Assembly: GCF_002923755.1 (NCBI RefSeq)
Contig: NZ_PGFZ01000004.1
Coordinates: 80,290-121,287 of the forward strand
Direction: 5' to 3'
DNA: 40,998 bases
Origin: Methylovulum psychrotolerans
Lineage (GTDB): Bacteria > Pseudomonadota > Gammaproteobacteria > Methylococcales > Methylomonadaceae
Positions 12,077-19,964 of this stretch are shown in pieces. Each line of letters starts with the position of its first letter. The stretch's first letter is position 1. The notes under the pieces are model-generated. The model did no database searches. It had not been told where the DNA came from and saw nothing but the letters and a program-made list of their open reading frames with translations. Position numbers and translations under genes: made by a program.

Positions 12077-12760
12077 TTAGTTTTCATGGCAGTTTAAGAC
12101 GCGAAACAGCATGTCCTCAAGAAAAGCGACGGTGTCGGATTCGTCTTTTTTGTCGCCAAAATCGGTTAAAGAAGGCAGGTGGTCTTTAAAGAAATTCTGA
12201 AAGTGCGCCATTTCAATAATGGTGGAGGCTAAGGATTTTGGGTATCGGTAGTTGGGGTTATATTCCAGAATGACTTGGGCGATATGGGCGCATAGGTCTT
12301 TGTAAGGTTTAAATAATTTGTCGTTGTTGTCTTCCGATACCCGTTTCGTCAAATAGGTTTTAGAGCCTTCCGTGATAATGATTTGATGCAACAGGTTTGC
12401 ATCGACATAGCTGGTTTGGACTCCCTCTTTTACGGTGGTCGCCAATAATTTGATGATCATTTTCAATTTAACGACAGGGTCGTGAATATTATTGGTCTGA
12501 TACATGACCTGATATTCCAGCCATGCCCAGTACCAAGCGGCAATGTAAATCAACAAGCGGTGTTTGTTTTCGAAATACCGATAAACGCCCGCCTCAGTCG
12601 TGCCTACTTCCTCGGCCAGCTTTTTAAAGGTAAAGGCTTCAAAACCGTTTTTATGTATTAGCCGAATGCTGTGCATAATTATTTTCTTGCCCAGTTCGGA
12701 TTGTTCTGGGTTTCTGAGAAACAATTTCTCATTCATCTTTATCTGCAATTCTATTTCCAT
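12077..12760 (-). CDS. TetR/AcrR-family transcriptional regulator
   Basis: The 227-aa protein has the TetR N-terminal DNA-binding fold with helix-turn-helix around residues 44-63 (FKKLAEEVGTTEAGVYRYFENK, abridged), followed by a divergent helical ligand domain. It is transcribed away from the exporter operon, with 352 bp between the starts, and that gap carries overlapping palindromes at a likely exporter promoter. The simplest reading is a local repressor of the exporter and perhaps of itself. The ligand is unknown. ATG at 12736 (MNEKLFL) is an alternative start; neither site has a strong ribosome binding site. Confidence 0.88.
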   Translation of the reverse strand: MEIELQIKMNEKLFLRNPEQSELGKKIIMHSIRLIHKNGFEAFTFKKLAEEVGTTEAGVYRYFENKHRLLIYIAAWYWAWLEYQVMYQTNNIHDPVVKLKMIIKLLATTVKEGVQTSYVDANLLHQIIITEGSKTYLTKRVSEDNNDKLFKPYKDLCAHIAQVILEYNPNYRYPKSLASTIIEMAHFQNFFKDHLPSLTDFGDKKDESDTVAFLEDMLFRVLNCHEN

Positions 12761-13001: not shown

Positions 13002-13046
13002 TTTACAATCTATATTGATAGTAATACTATCTTTTATAGATAGTAT
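13002..13046 (+). promoter_or_regulatory. Putative exporter promoter with overlapping TetR-type operator
   Basis: A candidate -35 TTTACA (13002-13007) and -10 TACTAT (13025-13030) are spaced 17 bp. Overlapping the -10 is a perfect 7-1-7 palindrome, GATAGTA-A-TACTATC (13017-13031). Its right arm also pairs with a third half-site, GATAGTAT at 13039-13046 (8-bp arms, 7-nt spacer). Three half-sites of one motif across a -10 box are what a TetR-type repressor operator looks like. That the adjacent regulator binds here is inference. Confidence 0.55.
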
Positions 13047-13112
13047 ATTATTGCCTATGATTGTAGGTTTCTTATTTAAAAAAGTAAATGATTGTTTTAG
13101 GACTGGCATCTT

Positions 13113-14777
13113 ATGAATAGTGCGCATAGCCCCTTACAGCGGTTGCAACAGCTTATCGCTCTTGAGCGTGAAGATATTGGCACGTTGATTATTTATGGTC
13201 TCGGCATTGGGGTGCTGTCGTTAGCTACGCCGGTTGCTGTGCAGGCGTTGGTCAATACGATTGCGTTTGGCGCGTTGTTTCAGCCATTGTTGGTGCTGAC
13301 GGTGGTGTTGTTGGTGTTGTTAGGCTTTAGTAACAGCTTGCTGGCCTTGCAGTTTTATGTGGTGGAGATGCTGCAACGGCGGGTGTTTGTCCGCTTATTT
13401 GGCGAAACGGCGGTGCGCTTACAGCAAATCCGCTATGCGGCTAAAAACGATTATCACCTGCCGGAATTGACCAATCGGTTTTTTGATGTGGTGACGTTGC
13501 AAAAAACCGCCTCTGTAATGTTGTTAGAGTTGTTGGGCTATGTGTTGCAGGCGGTTATCGGTATGTTATTGTTGGCGTTTTATCATCCGTTGTTACTGGC
13601 TTTTGATTTGTTTTTTGTGTGCGTGTTGGCGTTTATTTTGTTTGGGATGGGTAAAAATGGCTTGGCGTCCGCCATTGAGCAATCTAAGGCCAAATATAAG
13701 GCGGCAGCTTGGTTGGAGGAGCTAGCCGCCAATCCTTTGCTTGGCAAGTCGTCGGAAAACCGGGCGTATCTTAATGCCCAAACCGACCAGATTGCGAAAA
13801 ATTATGTGGATGCTTGCGCAAAGCATTTTAAGGTGTTGTCCGGCCAAAATATCAGTGCCTTAATTTTGCACGCGCTGGCCAATACCTTGTTGTTAGGTAT
13901 GGGCGGCTGGATGGTGATTTCTGATCAGCTGAGTTTGGGGCAATTGATTGCGGCGGAATTGGTGGTTGGGGCGATGATTTACGGCTTAACGCGCTTGGGC
14001 AAGGCATTGGAGAATTTTTACGATATGTTGGCGAGTGTCGATAAGCTGGGCTATTTGTTGGATTTGCCGCAGGAAAAAGACCACGGCGAAATGCCGGCGC
14101 GTATAGACGCGCCCTATACGGTTGCGGTTGAAAACCTCTGCTTACCTGAAAGCATGTACTTGGATGCACTTAATCAGGTCAGTTTTCAGCTTGCCCCAGG
14201 CGAACGTCTGGCTGTTAGCGCAGGGATTGCTAAGGGCAGTTTGTTGGATATTATCTATGGTTTGCGCGAGCCTCGGTCGGGGCAGGTTTGTTTGAATGGT
14301 CAAGACTTGCGTGACCTTAATCTGGGACAGTTACGCAATACGGTCAGTCTGGTGCGGGAGGCTGAGATTTTTTCCGGCACGTTGGCGGATAACGTCCGGT
14401 TGGGGCGGGCGCTGGGTTTAACGGAGGTTAAGCGGGCGTTGGCTTCGGTTGGTTTGGCGGACACGGTTTCAATATTGCCTGACAGTGTGGAAACCCTGTT
14501 GCTGCCGAATGGTTCGCCATTAAGCCATGAGCAATGTTTGCGGTTGACTTTGGCGCGGGCTTTGATCGGACGGCCCCGCTTGTTGTTGTTGGATAGGGTC
14601 TTGGATCGGCTTGATAGCCGTGTGTTACCGACAGTTATGGGGGTTTTACTGGCCGAAGATGCGCCTTGGACACTGATTGCCACTAGCCAGCGTGCCGACA
14701 TTATTGCCCAGTTCCAGAGGCACATCAGGCTTGATGACAACCGCTTTTCAGGCAATAAAAATGAAGGTGGCTTATGA
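13113..14777 (+). CDS. Type I secretion-like ABC transporter protein with degenerate ATPase domain
   Basis: The 554-aa protein has an ABC exporter membrane domain (about residues 20-310, with multiple hydrophobic helices and a VVEMLQRRVFVRLFGETAVRL segment as in HlyB/PrtD-like proteins) and a C-terminal nucleotide-binding-like domain (about 335-545). The fold signatures are recognisable but the catalytic positions are not. The Walker A place reads SAGIAKGSLL (369-378) and the Q-loop Gln is R415. The signature is LSHEQ (470-474), Walker B ends LLLLDR (D494 kept, Glu replaced by R495) and the H-loop His is Q526. There is no N-terminal peptidase or C39-like domain. It overlaps the adaptor gene by 4 bp, so it belongs to a tripartite export operon. 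Hydrolysis by this chain seems unlikely. Confidence 0.85.
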   Translation: MNSAHSPLQRLQQLIALEREDIGTLIIYGLGIGVLSLATPVAVQALVNTIAFGALFQPLLVLTVVLLVLLGFSNSLLALQFYVVEMLQRRVFVRLFGETAVRLQQIRYAAKNDYHLPELTNRFFDVVTLQKTASVMLLELLGYVLQAVIGMLLLAFYHPLLLAFDLFFVCVLAFILFGMGKNGLASAIEQSKAKYKAAAWLEELAANPLLGKSSENRAYLNAQTDQIAKNYVDACAKHFKVLSGQNISALILHALANTLLLGMGGWMVISDQLSLGQLIAAELVVGAMIYGLTRLGKALENFYDMLASVDKLGYLLDLPQEKDHGEMPARIDAPYTVAVENLCLPESMYLDALNQVSFQLAPGERLAVSAGIAKGSLLDIIYGLREPRSGQVCLNGQDLRDLNLGQLRNTVSLVREAEIFSGTLADNVRLGRALGLTEVKRALASVGLADTVSILPDSVETLLLPNGSPLSHEQCLRLTLARALIGRPRLLLLDRVLDRLDSRVLPTVMGVLLAEDAPWTLIATSQRADIIAQFQRHIRLDDNRFSGNKNEGGL

Positions 14778-16141
14778 AATACGATGAAATAAACCAGCCC
14801 TTATTGTCGGTAGTGACGACCTTAAAAGCGGTTGAGACGGCACCGGTTGCCAAGCGGATTGCGCGGAGCTTGCTTAAGTTGTTCTTGCTGTTGCTGTTAT
14901 GTTTAGGTTTTACGCCGTGGCAACAAAACGTGCGCGGTGTTGGCCGTATCGTCGCTTATACGCCTGCTGATCGCCAACAATTGATTAGCGCCCAAGTGGA
15001 GGGCCGCATTGCGCGGTGGTTGGTTAGGGAAGGCTCACAGGTTAAGCAAGGCGAGGTGTTGGCGGAATTGTTGGATAACGACCCTCAGTTATTGCAACGG
15101 TTGGCGGCTGAGCAGGTAGCGGCTTTGGCAAAGCAAGAAGCGACCGACAGCCGGGTGAATACCTTTCGTGAGCAATTGCGGTTGGCGGAACGCGCCCGCC
15201 CCCAAGCCGTAGCGGCGGCACAATCGCGTGTGGCTATGGCGGCTGAGCGGCGGAAAGCGGCAGAACAAGCTGTGCAAGCGGCGCAGGCCGCTAAGCAGAC
15301 CACGGCTTTAAATCTGTCCAGACAGCAACAGTTGAGGGCGAAAGGGTTGGCTTCGCAACGGACGCTGGAGTTATCCCAACTCGATATGGCGCAACGTGCT
15401 GCGGATACCGAAAGGGCGCAGGCGGCATTGGCGGCGGCAACCAGTGAAGTGGCGGCGTTAACGTCGGATCAGCAAAAACTGGCGGCGGATGCCGCCGCTA
15501 CGGTGGAAAAATCCCGCGCGGAATTAAGTAAGGCGATTGAAGACCAAAATAGCGTCCGTGCCGACATTTTAAAATTGCAAACCCGTTTGGCCCGGCAACA
15601 AACCCAAACGGTTACTGCACCGCGTGATGGGGTTGTGTTGCGCTTATTGGCGAACCCTGGGGCAGAAATGGTCAAACCGGGGCAGGCATTGGCCATTTTT
15701 GTCCCGGATACGCAAGATCGGGCGGTCGAATTATGGGTGGACGGTAACGATTTGCCGTTGATTGTAACGGGTAGCCCTGTCCGCTTGCAGTTTGAAGGCT
15801 ATCCCGCGATACAGTTTGGCGGGTGGCCTGAATTTTCTGTCGGCTCTTTTGGGGGGCGGGTGGCGTTGATTGATGCAACCGATGACGGCAAAGGCCATTT
15901 TCGGATTTTAGTGAGGCCTGATGCTGATGATAAAGCATGGCCTGGCACGCGGTTCTTGCGCCAAGGCGTTCGGGTGAATGGTTGGGTGTTGTTAGGGCAG
16001 GTCACTTTGGGTTATGAGTTGTGGCGGATTTTTAATGGCTTTCCGCCTTTGATTTTGCCCGAACCTTATGGGGCGGACGTTGCAAAAGACGCTGTAAAAG
16101 AAGAGGGTAACAAAGCGAAAGATGAAGGGGGGAAAGGGTGA
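14774..16141 (+). CDS. HlyD-family periplasmic adaptor (membrane fusion protein)
   Basis: The 455-aa product has a short cytoplasmic N-terminus, one membrane helix (about 29-48, SLLKLFLLLLLCLGF) and a biotinyl-lipoyl half-motif (SAQVEGRIARWLVREGSQVKQGEVLAEL). A very long Ala/Gln-rich coiled coil (about 105-275) follows, then the second lipoyl half (TVTAPRDGVVLRLLANPGAEM) and a beta-barrel. Such adaptors bridge an inner-membrane transporter and a TolC channel. The ATG overlaps the ABC stop (ATGA) and its stop overlaps the channel gene (TGATG), so the three are tightly coupled. The C-terminus ends in a charged Lys/Glu/Gly tail. The transported substrate is unknown. Confidence 0.92.
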   Translation: MKYDEINQPLLSVVTTLKAVETAPVAKRIARSLLKLFLLLLLCLGFTPWQQNVRGVGRIVAYTPADRQQLISAQVEGRIARWLVREGSQVKQGEVLAELLDNDPQLLQRLAAEQVAALAKQEATDSRVNTFREQLRLAERARPQAVAAAQSRVAMAAERRKAAEQAVQAAQAAKQTTALNLSRQQQLRAKGLASQRTLELSQLDMAQRAADTERAQAALAAATSEVAALTSDQQKLAADAAATVEKSRAELSKAIEDQNSVRADILKLQTRLARQQTQTVTAPRDGVVLRLLANPGAEMVKPGQALAIFVPDTQDRAVELWVDGNDLPLIVTGSPVRLQFEGYPAIQFGGWPEFSVGSFGGRVALIDATDDGKGHFRILVRPDADDKAWPGTRFLRQGVRVNGWVLLGQVTLGYELWRIFNGFPPLILPEPYGADVAKDAVKEEGNKAKDEGGKG

Positions 16142-17544
16142 TGGTTAAAGCCGCTATATTTATGATTTTGCTGTTGCCTGCTTTGGTGTCGGCAGCAGGT
16201 GCCCCGCCGATACTCACCCTGGATAGGGTGGTCAGTTCGGCGCAACAGTCGTTTCCGGGGTTGTTGGCCGCTGAGCAGCGCAAGCAAGTCGCCGCTGGCG
16301 AACTGACGGCATCAGAAGGCGGCTTTGATACGTTATTAAAAGCACAAAACCGCTGGTCTGTTGCGGGTTTGTATGAAAACCAAAACAATGACATTAGCGT
16401 GGAGCAACCCACGGCACTTTGGGGGACAACGTTTTTTGGCGGGTGGCGGCGGGGCGTGGGCGATTACCCGCTTTATGAAGGTAAAAGCCAGACTGCCCAA
16501 AGCGGCGAAGCCCGCATTGGGGTGAATGTACCCTTATGGCGTAACCGTGACATTGACCGCCGCCGGGCAAGTTTGCAGCAGGCGGAGTGGGGGCAATTAG
16601 TCGCTGGTCATGACTATGAGCTGGCGTTGCTTGAAGCTACCCGGATGGCCTCTTATCGCTATTGGGATTGGGTGTTAGCAGGGCAGCGTTTAAGGGTTGC
16701 CTCGCATTTGCTGCAAATTGCCGAGCAGCGTGATAAAGGCATACGCGAGCGGGTGGCGGCGGGGGATATTCCTGATTTTGAAGCCTTGGATAATCGCCGC
16801 GCTATCATCGAACGCCAAGAGCGGGTGGTGGCTGCGCAACGTTTATTGGAACAGACGGCGCTCCAATTGTCATTTTATTGGCGTGATGCGGACGGTCAGC
16901 CCCAGTTGCCCAGTGCCGGGCAACTGCCGGAACGGTTTCCTGATCCGGTGTCGATAAAGACGCTTGATGCTGCCGAAGCGTTGCAAGTCTCGCTCAACCA
17001 TCGGCCCGAAGCCAAGCGTTTGGCCGTGCAAGCTAAACAAACCCAAACAGAATTGGAATTCCAGCAAAACCAGCGTGCCCCTGCCGTCGATTTGTCGGTG
17101 ATGGCGGCGAATGATATAGGCCATAGCAAAGATAAGATTAACCGTAACGAGCTGTATGTGGGATTGAATATTGATATTCCGTTACAGCAACGCGCCGCTA
17201 GTGGCCGCGCCCAAGTCGCGGCGGCTAATGTCCGCCGTTTAAAGTGGGATAAGCAATTGCAGGAAGAGCGTATTGCGGTGGAAGTGAAAGATGTTTTTTC
17301 GGCGCTGTCAGCGGTGCGCAAACGCTTGTCATTAAGCGCCGAGCAACTGAATGCCGCCGAGCAATTGGCGGACGGCGAACAGACGCGGTTTGATTTGGGT
17401 GAAAGCACGTTGCTGTTCGTTAATTTGCGCGAGATAGCGAAAGGGGATGCGGCCTTGCAGTACGCCGAAGCCACCGCCAGTTTGTTCAGGAGTTATGCTG
17501 ATTATCAGGCTGTGTTGGGTGTTCAGGAGCACTATGTTGACTAA
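16141..17544 (+). CDS. TolC-family outer-membrane efflux protein
   Basis: The 467-aa product starts with a signal peptide (MVKAAIFMILLLPALVSA, cleavage near residue 18). It shows the two-fold repeated helical-hairpin and barrel pattern of outer-membrane efflux proteins (LDRVVSSAQQSFPGLLAAEQ; later LQVSLNHRPEAKRLAVQAKQ; LYVGLNIDIPLQQRAASGR; DLGESTLLFVNLRE). It would form the outer-membrane channel of the exporter encoded upstream. I prefer ATG 16141, which overlaps the adaptor stop by one base; a GTG one codon earlier is possible. A dedicated TolC-type gene inside the operon suggests the system is self-contained. Confidence 0.92.
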   Translation: MVKAAIFMILLLPALVSAAGAPPILTLDRVVSSAQQSFPGLLAAEQRKQVAAGELTASEGGFDTLLKAQNRWSVAGLYENQNNDISVEQPTALWGTTFFGGWRRGVGDYPLYEGKSQTAQSGEARIGVNVPLWRNRDIDRRRASLQQAEWGQLVAGHDYELALLEATRMASYRYWDWVLAGQRLRVASHLLQIAEQRDKGIRERVAAGDIPDFEALDNRRAIIERQERVVAAQRLLEQTALQLSFYWRDADGQPQLPSAGQLPERFPDPVSIKTLDAAEALQVSLNHRPEAKRLAVQAKQTQTELEFQQNQRAPAVDLSVMAANDIGHSKDKINRNELYVGLNIDIPLQQRAASGRAQVAAANVRRLKWDKQLQEERIAVEVKDVFSALSAVRKRLSLSAEQLNAAEQLADGEQTRFDLGESTLLFVNLREIAKGDAALQYAEATASLFRSYADYQAVLGVQEHYVD

Positions 17545-17569
17545 TCTGCTTGCGTTAAGAGAGGCTCAA

Positions 17570-18013
17570 ATGACGGTAAATGAGAAGGTTAAAGATCAAA
17601 TAAAGCGCTTTCCGATAGTGAAATGGTTGCTGTGTTTGTTGGCATTGGGTTATCTGCTGCACTTTCCTGAGGCCATTGCTCATGGCATTGTCTGGGTGGC
17701 GCACACTTTTTATGAAGCCACATCGTTTGTGCTTGAGGAGTTTTTACGGCACACGTTTGGCTTTGATAAGTTTTTGGCGCAATTGACTGTGTTTTATTTC
17801 AGTGTCGTGGTGGGGATAGGGGGCATTTTTTTGGTTTGGCGGCCAGCTATTAGGGCGTTGCATAGCCTTAGGGATTACGCGCTCCGCAAGCTCTACGCTT
17901 ATCAATATCGGCTTGTGTATTACTGGCGCAGTCAGCGGACAGCGCAGAAAATTAAGCTGATACTGATCCATTCCGCCTTAATGATAAGCGGGTTTATGTT
18001 TTTGTTGATGTGA
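17570..18013 (+). CDS. Small inner-membrane protein at end of exporter operon
   Basis: The 147-aa product has hydrophobic segments near residues 18-34 (VKWLLCLLALGYLLHF), 69-92 (LAQLTVFYFSVVVGIGGIFLVW) and 128-147 (KLILIHSALMISGFMFLLM), joined by a basic stretch rich in Arg and Tyr. I do not recognise the family. It starts 25 bp after the channel gene with GAGAGG a few bases upstream, so it is probably the last gene of the operon. ATG 17534, 12 codons upstream, is an alternative start that overlaps the channel gene. Because the ABC partner looks catalytically dead, this protein is a candidate accessory or energising subunit, but that is speculation. Confidence 0.75.
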   Translation: MTVNEKVKDQIKRFPIVKWLLCLLALGYLLHFPEAIAHGIVWVAHTFYEATSFVLEEFLRHTFGFDKFLAQLTVFYFSVVVGIGGIFLVWRPAIRALHSLRDYALRKLYAYQYRLVYYWRSQRTAQKIKLILIHSALMISGFMFLLM

Positions 18014-18159: not shown

Positions 18160-18807
18160 ATGAAAACGTTAACGAAAGCAATACAAGCAGGAATTACTCC
18201 GGCAATGGCATTGGCGTTGTTGCAAGAAGGTAATAAACGCTTTGTCAATAATCTGAAGGTCAACCGTAATTTGCTGCAACAGGCCAATGAAACGTCCGAT
18301 GGCCAACATCCGTTTGCGGTCATTTTAAGCTGTATAGATTCGCGCACCTCGGTGGAGTTGATTTTTGACCAAGGTTTGGGGGATGTTTTTAGTATCCGTA
18401 TCGCCGGGAGTATTATTAACGAAGACATCTTAGGCAGTATGGAGTTTGCCTGTAAGGTCGCCGGGGCAAAATTCATTGTCGTGTTAGGCCATACCAAATG
18501 TGGGGCGGTTAAAGGTGCGTGTGACCATGTCGAAATGGGCAACCTGACCGCCTTGCTTGCAAAGCTGCAACCTGCCGTTTATGATGAGAAAACCGAAACC
18601 GAAAACCGGCACTCAGGGAATGGTGAATTTGTCGAAAAAGTGTCGGTGATTAATGTCAAGCGGACGGTACATGCCGTTTTGGAACGCAGCCCTATATTAA
18701 AAGAGATGATTGCCGACGGCACGATTGGCATTGTTGGCGGTACGCATGATATCGCAAGTGGCGCGGTTACTTTTTATGATGATACGTTGTTGGTTAATAA
18801 CCCGTGA
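18160..18807 (+). CDS. Beta-class carbonic anhydrase
   Basis: The 215-aa enzyme interconverts CO2 and bicarbonate. All zinc and active-site positions are visible: C58 and D60-S-R62 in LSCIDSRTSVE, and H111/C114 in VLGHTKCGAVKGAC. There is no signal peptide, so it is cytoplasmic. I chose ATG 18160 (MKTLTKAIQAG) with a GGA seven bases upstream; the GTG at 18148 is an in-frame alternative. It has its own upstream gap and does not appear to belong to the exporter operon. A CO2-handling role would suit a methanotroph or autotroph but is not specific. Confidence 0.93.
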   Translation: MKTLTKAIQAGITPAMALALLQEGNKRFVNNLKVNRNLLQQANETSDGQHPFAVILSCIDSRTSVELIFDQGLGDVFSIRIAGSIINEDILGSMEFACKVAGAKFIVVLGHTKCGAVKGACDHVEMGNLTALLAKLQPAVYDEKTETENRHSGNGEFVEKVSVINVKRTVHAVLERSPILKEMIADGTIGIVGGTHDIASGAVTFYDDTLLVNNP

Positions 18808-18986: not shown

Positions 18987-19964
18987 TTAGAAGGTGTCGC
19001 TATACAGCAGGGCACCGGACTTGCTGTCGCGGGTTTCGGCGGTTGCCTTGCCTGTGGGCAAGACACCGACAACGGTTAATTCGCTAAAGGTTTTATCCGA
19101 GCTGTAAGTGGCGCTCAGCGAACGTGGCTGGTAGGTGCTGTTCAGAAAGTTAAACGTTTTTAAGGAAACGTTGTTGTTTTTTGCATCTTTAATTCTGATG
19201 GTCAGCCCTGACAGCACCGCTATTTCAGGAACACCGTTGATATTCATATCGGCGATGACTGCCAAACCAATAGGCGGTGTGGGGGTGGAGTTGGCAAAGG
19301 TTAGGGTGCTGATGGTCGTATGGGTTTTGGGGTCACGGATGATGACGGTGTGGTTGTTGGTTTTGTAGTCCAGATAAAGCGCGGCAGTTTCGTCTACACC
19401 GTTATTGTTAAGGTCGGGTACGGTGGCGCTGGCAACATAGTCATTGCCTTCCCATTCGCAGACGTAGCCGGTAGAGTAAGTGCCTTGATATTGTACATAG
19501 CCATCGTTGTTGGCTAACTGCCATTTTCCGTCGCTGACTTTCATCCCATAGAAGTCATAACCGCCGTTTGCAGACGGAAAGTTTTTGCCGAAGGCTTCAC
19601 CTGTCAGCCATGACCAAGTGTAGGTATTTTCATTGAATACAGCACCAATAAAGTTAAAATTATTGTTGCCATTCGGGGCTCCGGCAGGTGATTTGCTGAC
19701 CAGTTGCGAGTAAACAAAATCAGCTTCTTTATTGTCAACACCGTAATCAGTGCCTGCAAACGTCACCAAATGTGCCTTTAGTGCGCTGCAATTGGCGTTT
19801 GCTGTGGATTGTTTGACATTGGCCAAGTCAAAGCGCTGATAATAGTGTCCTGTTACAGGGTTAAATACCTTAAGGGAATCGGCGGCCACAGGCGTTAAAC
19901 CTTGTAGGGCGGCAGTTACTAATAGGGTATTCGCTATAGATAAACCTAATTTTTTATTTGTCAT
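18987..19964 (-). CDS. Secreted C-type-lectin-like protein with calcium-loop repeats
   Basis: The 325-aa product has a signal peptide (about 1-28, ending TPVAA). It then has a C-type lectin-like domain (about 38-172): NANCSALKAHLVTFAGTDYG, FNFIGAVFNENTYTWSWLTGE, GKWQLANNDGY and the closing YVCEWEGND. The C-terminal half carries two FG-GAP/VCBS-like loops, DLNNNGVDE and DMNINGVPE, each spaced like a calcium-binding DxNxNGxxE site. It is probably exported and may bind carbohydrate or calcium. There is no C-terminal anchor or sorting motif that I recognise. It appears to be monocistronic. Confidence 0.75.
   Translation of the reverse strand: MTNKKLGLSIANTLLVTAALQGLTPVAADSLKVFNPVTGHYYQRFDLANVKQSTANANCSALKAHLVTFAGTDYGVDNKEADFVYSQLVSKSPAGAPNGNNNFNFIGAVFNENTYTWSWLTGEAFGKNFPSANGGYDFYGMKVSDGKWQLANNDGYVQYQGTYSTGYVCEWEGNDYVASATVPDLNNNGVDETAALYLDYKTNNHTVIIRDPKTHTTISTLTFANSTPTPPIGLAVIADMNINGVPEIAVLSGLTIRIKDAKNNNVSLKTFNFLNSTYQPRSLSATYSSDKTFSELTVVGVLPTGKATAETRDSKSGALLYSDTF

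Follow-up and report, generated by a model that had tools for sequence, protein, structure and literature searches.

A three-gene cluster of the methanotroph Methylovulum psychrotolerans encodes an ATP-binding cassette (ABC) half exporter, a HlyD-type periplasmic adaptor and a TolC-type outer membrane channel, and its ABC protein belongs to a clade of 79 relatives in which ATPase motifs have been lost. The cluster lies in a stretch of 40,998 nucleotides of contig NZ_PGFZ01000004.1 (positions 80,290 to 121,287), hereafter called the window. Judged from sequence, the clade appears catalytically dead and under selection, keeps its gene triad, carries an invariant glutamate and an invariant glutamine in its membrane domain, and recurs beside genes of carbon metabolism. 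We give an even chance to the interpretation that the system is an ATP-independent tripartite exporter driven by a gradient, with E282 and Q146 as its likeliest coupling or selectivity site, which would serve inorganic-carbon or pH balance in Methylococcales. The original prediction described a single exporter whose ABC protein had lost every ATPase motif; the finding is real and more general than first noted. The carbon-gene context and an inverted pattern of conservation are additions beyond that prediction.

In the phylogenetic tree, the 79 clade rows split from 20 intact outgroups with a support of 100, and the clade members span several families of Pseudomonadota. Relatives with 52-79% identity include many Methylococcaceae as well as Nitrotoga; a second group, with 36-44% identity, is made up mostly of proteins of about 700 residues, and more distant relatives occur in other families of the class and the phylum. 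Matches to profile A1 at E <=1e-60 were obtained in 14 of 369 genomes of the class and 11 of 398 of the phylum, the window genome included, and in a second class two of 240 genomes matched at 1e-45, both known before. This profile gave 224.6 to 562.6 bits for the proteins of loci L089-L128 (down to 212.3 in another search) and 20.9 to 137.2 bits for the outgroups; HlyB and PCAT1 scored about 134-135 bits (HlyB 135) and two-domain P-glycoproteins about 207. No description of this family, or of the small membrane protein (SMP) discussed below, was apparent among the papers listed from the open-licence literature as judged by titles and the beginnings of abstracts, which is not proof of absence from print.

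Six features of the nucleotide-binding domain (NBD) were scored in each row. Over the clade, Walker A was intact in 21 rows, the Q-loop in none, the signature in 3 (counted as intact if the serine and the fourth-position glycine were present), the Walker B aspartate in 60, the catalytic glutamate in 3 and the H-loop in 19; 78 of the 79 rows are gapped at the Q-loop position, and which residue faces the glutamine depends on the alignment. The outgroups retained Walker A, signature, Walker B aspartate, catalytic glutamate and H-loop in 20 of 20 rows and the Q-loop in 18, their intactness being partly a matter of choice since they were selected by hand, 15 from the listed lower-scoring matches and five from the window genome. 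The subclade of the window (39 rows) kept only the Walker B aspartate (37) and the H-loop (16), every row lacking Walker A, Q-loop, signature and catalytic glutamate under the strict test, with a gap at the first Walker A glycine in 38. The 704-aa group (20 rows) kept Walker A in 20, Walker B aspartate in 20, catalytic glutamate in 2, signature and H-loop in 1 each and the Q-loop in none, and the 20 distant rows kept 1 Walker A, no Q-loop, 2 signatures, 3 Walker B aspartates, 1 catalytic glutamate and 2 H-loops. The clade was sampled from a limited, evenly drawn set of genomes; some of its rows are near-copies (for instance L047 and L022), and the row of L107 is incomplete, the N-terminal part of its ABC protein lying in another frame. 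Homologues with intact motifs do not dominate the family: all 79 members examined lack at least two of the six features. Loss of the motifs is a property of the whole clade and not a local decay.

The window protein itself retains only D494 of Walker B and D498 of the D-loop, and its P-loop is shorter by two residues than those of L061 and L038. The claim that every ATPase motif was lost was accurate for Walker A, Q-loop, signature, catalytic glutamate and H-loop and went too far for these two aspartates; moreover, Pfam still scores the domain as ABC_tran (49.5 bits, cut-off 25). The membrane domain falls narrowly under the Pfam cut-off for ABC_membrane (27.1 bits, cut-off 28), and the NCBIfam models of type I secretion systems score far under their cut-offs, the best being LssB with 128.9 bits where 693.1 are required.

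Several rows seem to represent different stages of the loss. The basal row L105, on a long branch (the rest of the clade is joined with a support of 94), retains Walker A and the H-loop, reads ISIGE at the signature and LDD in Walker B, and already possesses Q146 and the GQLVAAE stretch that contains the invariant glutamate; because of this combination, an early change in the transmembrane domain (TMD) seems to have preceded a stepwise loss of the catalytic features. L061, whose GSGKGT counts as lost by the strict Walker A test and could still be a P-loop, is to all appearances another intermediate.

Because the NBD evolves with a ratio of nonsynonymous to synonymous substitution rates (dN/dS) of 0.105-0.209, it is under purifying selection; the TMD gave 0.038-0.156, both ranges coming from nine of ten sequence pairs, with the tenth saturated and several dS values above 1. 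Together with the clade of 79 and the intact overlapping genes, these ratios bear out the earlier view of a gene that is selected, not decaying. Conservation is inverted with respect to ordinary exporters: the clade has 12 invariant columns in the TMD and none in the NBD, where the outgroups have none in the TMD and 13 in the NBD. Among the conserved positions, Tyr157 and Tyr303 are present in every one of the 79 clade rows, as are E282 in transmembrane segment 6 (TM6) and Q146 in TM3. Five outgroups carry AFN or AFQ at the E282 stretch. In a profile alignment with the Protein Data Bank (PDB), counted by hand, E282 lies opposite F331 of P-glycoprotein (chain 6ujw), a residue adjoining those known to line the drug cavity.

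The window protein is predicted to adopt the type I exporter fold, six transmembrane helices followed by an NBD. In the AlphaFold2 (AF2) model, the NBD folds with a confidence (pLDDT) of 84-96 in 10-residue blocks over residues 331-540, and the TMD helices extend from 7-51 to 273-316 with a pLDDT of 43-90 in such blocks. Foldseek matched this model to Atm1, HlyB and PCAT1 in the PDB over nearly the full length, with E values down to 8.5e-22 and TM-scores of about 0.5-0.6 that include the low-confidence TMD; HlyB/D (8dck and 7sgr) and PCAT1 (8vox) were among the top matches.

The genomic setting was compared at 67 loci, 27 of the window subclade, 20 of the 704-aa group and 20 of distant relatives, some of whose neighbours are hidden by contig ends. 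A HlyD gene is linked to the ABC gene in all 67 and a TolC gene in 62; of the five without TolC, two are at contig ends and three belong to one family (f52). These three (L118, L119 and L128) come from genomes near 2 Mb in size; their genes for the dead ABC protein and HlyD stand beside genes that look by eye like gatCAB, with no adjacent TolC gene and no recognisable P-loop in the ABC protein. The gene order TetR-ABC-HlyD-TolC-SMP had been named as one to check for conservation. Its ABC-HlyD-TolC core is general and the SMP gene accompanies part of the loci, whereas TetR was found in five of 67 and was rejected as a general component; the exporter's supposed own regulator is local to the window. 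Besides HlyD and TolC, no neighbouring gene is common to most of the distant families, and no cargo gene was recognised beside the triad, although no systematic search for one was made. The ABC cluster of neighbouring genes comprised four further open reading frames (ORFs), namely SufC (L058), FtsE with FtsX (L110), an ATPase-only protein about 7 kb away (L111) and the N-terminal part of the locus's own ABC protein (L107); UvrA adjoins L121. No partner half exporter was present among the typed neighbours, not every neighbour being typed and unlinked partners not being searched.

In the window, the ORF map confirmed the five genes where they had been placed, with an intact ABC gene and overlapping triad genes (Table 1). 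The ABC and HlyD genes overlap by 4 nt, and the HlyD and TolC genes by 4 nt if TolC starts at GTG or by 1 nt if it starts at the ATG at 16141. Further downstream (18987-19964, minus strand), and convergent with the carbonic anhydrase gene, lies a gene whose product looks secreted and matches C-type lectins weakly (E 0.013, under the cut-off). This lectin-like gene was rejected as a general part of the system, as it had no match in the 27 loci compared.

Table 1. Features of the exporter locus, in window coordinates.
Feature	Position	Strand	Basis
TetR-type regulator, divergent	12077..12760	-	Pfam TetR_N 40.2 bits
ABC half exporter, 554 aa, NBD catalytically dead	13113..14777	+	ORF, Pfam, clade, motif counts, AF2, Foldseek
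Helical membrane domain (residues 1-316), six TM segments assigned by analogy to type I exporters	13113..14060	+	AF2, conservation
Codon of Q146, TM3	13548..13550	+	79/79 clade rows vs 2/20 outgroups; stretch with pLDDT <50
Codon of E282, TM6, GQL[IV]AAE	13956..13958	+	79/79 clade rows vs 0/20 outgroups
Degenerate NBD, residues 335-545	14115..14747	+	AF2, dN/dS
Lost Walker A, residues 369-378 SAGIAKGSLL	14217..14246	+	Residue reading, strict motif test
Lost Q-loop, R415	14355..14357	+	Residue reading, motif test
Lost signature, residues 470-474 LSHEQ	14520..14534	+	Residue reading, motif test
Walker B, D494 kept, R495 in place of the catalytic Glu	14592..14597	+	Residue reading, motif test
Lost H-loop, Q526	14688..14690	+	Residue reading, motif test
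HlyD-type periplasmic adaptor, 455 aa	14774..16141	+	Pfam HlyD_3 44.3 bits
TolC-type outer membrane channel, 468 aa	16138..17544	+	Pfam OEP 91.1 bits
SMP, 147 aa, ATG at 17570	17570..18013	+	ORF
Beta-carbonic anhydrase, recurrent neighbour	18160..18807	+	Pfam Pro_CA 127.6 bits

The SMP is a real associate of the triad in Methylococcales. It stands beside the ABC gene in 17 of the 27 window-subclade loci and in 6 of the 20 loci of the 704-aa group, and the family was matched in 163 of 201 family genomes, with up to eight copies per genome. The original prediction listed it among the possible energy sources of the exporter, a role that it may have, but its paralogues also stand beside SulP and DAB carbon transporters. 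Neither Pfam nor NCBIfam matched it up to E 0.1; its AF2 model consists of four helices (pLDDT 88), and comparison of this model with the PDB found no known fold (best E 3.9). Members of the SMP family share, by eye, an H...E......E pattern on one helix, and those of about 300 residues (L149:4525-5466, L158:3959-4960) bear an additional domain at the N terminus that resembles PilZ by eye only. Copies away from the triad were followed at 39 hand-picked loci (L139-L156, L158 and L179-L198) lacking a profile A1 match at E <=1e-15; of 40 loci retrieved, L157 was excluded, as its SMP gene follows a TolC-like gene. SulP was near 19 of these copies, carbonic anhydrase near 17, DabA near 5 and DabB near 5, and none of the counted carbon genes was near 20. 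Carbonic anhydrase is fused to SulP in both loci that were checked (L143 and L146). Loci L102 and L148 have genes for an NhaR-type regulator, pyruvate carboxylase and SMP in common, and the dead-ABC triad stands in one where SulP stands in the other.

Carbon genes, counted as phosphoenolpyruvate carboxylase (PEPC), pyruvate carboxylase B, carbonic anhydrase, SulP or DabA, were also sought around the triad itself in 47 Methylococcales-type loci, a set that excludes the window locus and contains three named Nitrotoga or betaproteobacterial. PEPC was found in 16, an NhaR-type LysR gene in 15, carbonic anhydrase in 7, SMP in 23, and pyruvate carboxylase B, SulP and DabA in one each. At least one carbon gene was near 23 of these loci against one of 20 random places (Fisher p 0.0003), a value that is only a guide as neighbouring loci are not independent; one control place that coincided with part of an SMP locus was shifted by 1 Mb, and the control's single carbon gene is a DabA. 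PEPC is on the same strand as the triad in 16 of 16 cases, upstream in 14 (with ORF gaps of 0 to 1.8 kb, or 2.8 kb in L042) and downstream in 2, and its linkage needs 10 changes on a tree of 39 scored rows that includes the window and omits nine rows, mostly with short upstream flanks. The NhaR assignment exceeds the NCBIfam cut-off in L095, L148, L055 and L097 and is the best match, under the cut-off, in L113; NhaR-type LysR genes occur in the distant loci L113, L125 and L127, and L117 and L043 carry other LysR types. In the distant locus L117, DabB and DabA (the latter in two frames) diverge from a LysR gene followed by ABC-HlyD-TolC, and L051 shows the order partial NhaR-type gene, DabB, DabA, DUF6671 gene, ABC-HlyD. 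A carbonic anhydrase gene lies 3' of the triad in L062 (L062:10928-11646), in pieces in this metagenome-assembled genome. Genes read in two frames, possibly through frameshifts or sequencing errors, were observed for DabA (L117:2835-6666), PEPC (L101) and the dead ABC protein (L107:8295-10357).

How might such an exporter work? The body of the exporter is constant and the ATPase residues are lost; therefore it probably runs on something other than ATP. A dimer of membrane domains would form, with HlyD and TolC, a conduit across both membranes. The NBDs would persist as folded domains, probably to clamp the dimer, with no canonical ATP site, and an ion or substrate gradient would drive movement, E282 in TM6 and Q146 in TM3 being the likeliest coupling or selectivity site. 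The cargo in Methylococcales would probably be a small anion tied to the use of bicarbonate, either bicarbonate itself or an acid from the linked carboxylase. From these elements we infer a transporter that does without ATP, together with its coupling to a gradient, its cargo and its direction. There is a precedent in LmrA, whose membrane domain alone carries ions and needs Glu314 in TM6, near amides of TM3, according to two studies (PMC2704374, PMC6155054). A wider scenario, which we find possible and rather doubtful, is that an ancestor gained the TM6 glutamate where some type I exporters have the asparagine of AFN and became an ion- or gradient-driven carrier, after which the ATPase died across the Pseudomonadota clade; in methanotrophs this would have yielded a third, HlyD/TolC-coupled carbon or acid system beside SulP and DAB.

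A number of observations weigh against the gradient-driven exporter. Walker A persists throughout the 704-aa group and the H-loop histidine in 16 of 39 window-subclade rows, the TMD model is of low confidence, and several dS values are high as noted above. By residue counting, E282 probably does not align with Glu314 of LmrA and lies some 20 residues nearer the periplasm, so that the parallel is an analogy only. The carbon connection has its own difficulties: 24 of the 47 Methylococcales-type loci are without a carbon gene, the window's own genome keeps PEPC with a divergent NhaR-type LysR gene elsewhere on the contig (L220:1501-5428, at about 353-357 kb), and tripartite ABC systems export, a poor fit to simple bicarbonate uptake. 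Because only one of the 20 distant loci is near a carbon gene, the same as at random places, the link may be peculiar to Methylococcales or a side effect of the NhaR-PEPC operon. In LmrA, part of the ion current depends on ATP binding and is absent, under that condition, from the form lacking the NBD, as reported in the work cited above.

The original prediction had named a second ABC subunit among the possible energy sources, and the present results weaken this proposal. The window protein would be the inert half of a heterodimer whose canonical partner, encoded elsewhere, burns ATP as in Pdr5 or TM287/288. Heterodimeric exporters commonly contain a degenerate site, ABC genes are numerous in the genome (62 PF00005 matches), and a Pdr5 study describes a site with all motifs changed and a signature LNVEQ, much like the LTxEQ found here (PMC7756269). 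In a canonical composite site, however, one subunit has to supply Walker A and B, Q-loop and H-loop and its partner LSGGQ; because the window protein supplies neither the Walker half nor the signature half, a canonical site should not be able to form in a homodimer or a heterodimer. The clade is, moreover, most constant in its TMD, and the neighbours that were typed (not all were) include UvrA, SufC, FtsE and an ATPase-only protein and no half exporter, all of which makes the heterodimer an unlikely explanation. Slightly less credit still is due to a nucleotide-gated conduit, in which ATP or another ligand would bind the NBD without hydrolysis and only open the channel. The sister 704-aa group, with Walker A and the Walker B aspartate in every row, L105, which adds the H-loop and part of the signature, and the GSGKGT of L061 would suit such gating; the strict Walker A test, failed by all 39 window-subclade rows (38 of them gapped at the first glycine) and by 19 of the 20 distant rows, argues against it.

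On a par with gating in its improbability is a protein that transports nothing and acts as a membrane scaffold or sensor, stabilising HlyD-TolC or regulating a neighbouring carbon transporter. Such ABC proteins exist, since SUR has no transport function and regulates a potassium channel, and the carbon transporters to which the SMP and the regulators point work alone. The whole membrane domain, including its cavity residues, is nevertheless the most constrained part of the protein, and the full triad is present in 62 of 67 loci. The decay of an ordinary type I exporter, a pseudogene in progress, would account for lost motifs and for an ABC_membrane score narrowly under its cut-off, and can be set aside as very improbable: it was rejected by the clade tree, the motif counts shared by 79 members and the NBD dN/dS, and the overlapping genes are intact.

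ABC exporters are defined by ATP, and a selected clade of this kind would be a natural experiment on the ability of an ABC membrane domain to act as a secondary carrier, a question raised by the work on LmrA and MsbA. L105, the 704-aa group, L061 and the window subclade stand at different stages of catalytic loss. Methanotrophs release and re-fix CO2, and if the carbon link is true, the triad would be an unrecognised component of their carbon handling. The SMP, shared with SulP and DAB genes, provides a new handle on those systems.

Comparison with known systems, which draws on five publications (PMC7756269, PMC8277102, PMC6155054, PMC2704374, PMC11423575), places the window protein near several of them. 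It resembles the type I secretion exporters HlyB, PrtD and PCAT1 in its fold, in the gene triad with HlyD and TolC and in being a half transporter with membrane domain and NBD; it differs from them in that the catalytic motifs are gone, that the TM6 glutamate and TM3 glutamine are invariant and that the NCBIfam models for these systems do not recognise it. With the degenerate-site exporters Pdr5, TM287/288, TmrAB and MRP1 it shares the replacement of catalytic residues and signature in a folded NBD, but these are reported to keep one canonical site in the assembled transporter, whereas the window protein, itself a half transporter, has neither part of such a site. LmrA resembles what is proposed here in its ion-coupled ABC membrane domain and its TM6 glutamate near TM3 amides; unlike the window system, it has a working ATPase, operates in a single membrane without HlyD or TolC and probably holds its glutamate at another height in TM6. 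The SulP-carbonic anhydrase and DAB (DabA/DabB) systems have neighbours in common with the triad, namely SMP paralogues, carbonic anhydrase, NhaR-type regulators and bicarbonate-using carboxylases, and in a methanotroph study SulP with CA3 is proposed as a possible importer or exporter of bicarbonate in M. capsulatus. No Pfam match indicating SulP or DabA/DabB homology was obtained up to E 0.1 in the window's ABC, HlyD, TolC or SMP proteins, and both systems belong to protein families unrelated to the ABC protein and lack the TolC conduit that accompanies it.

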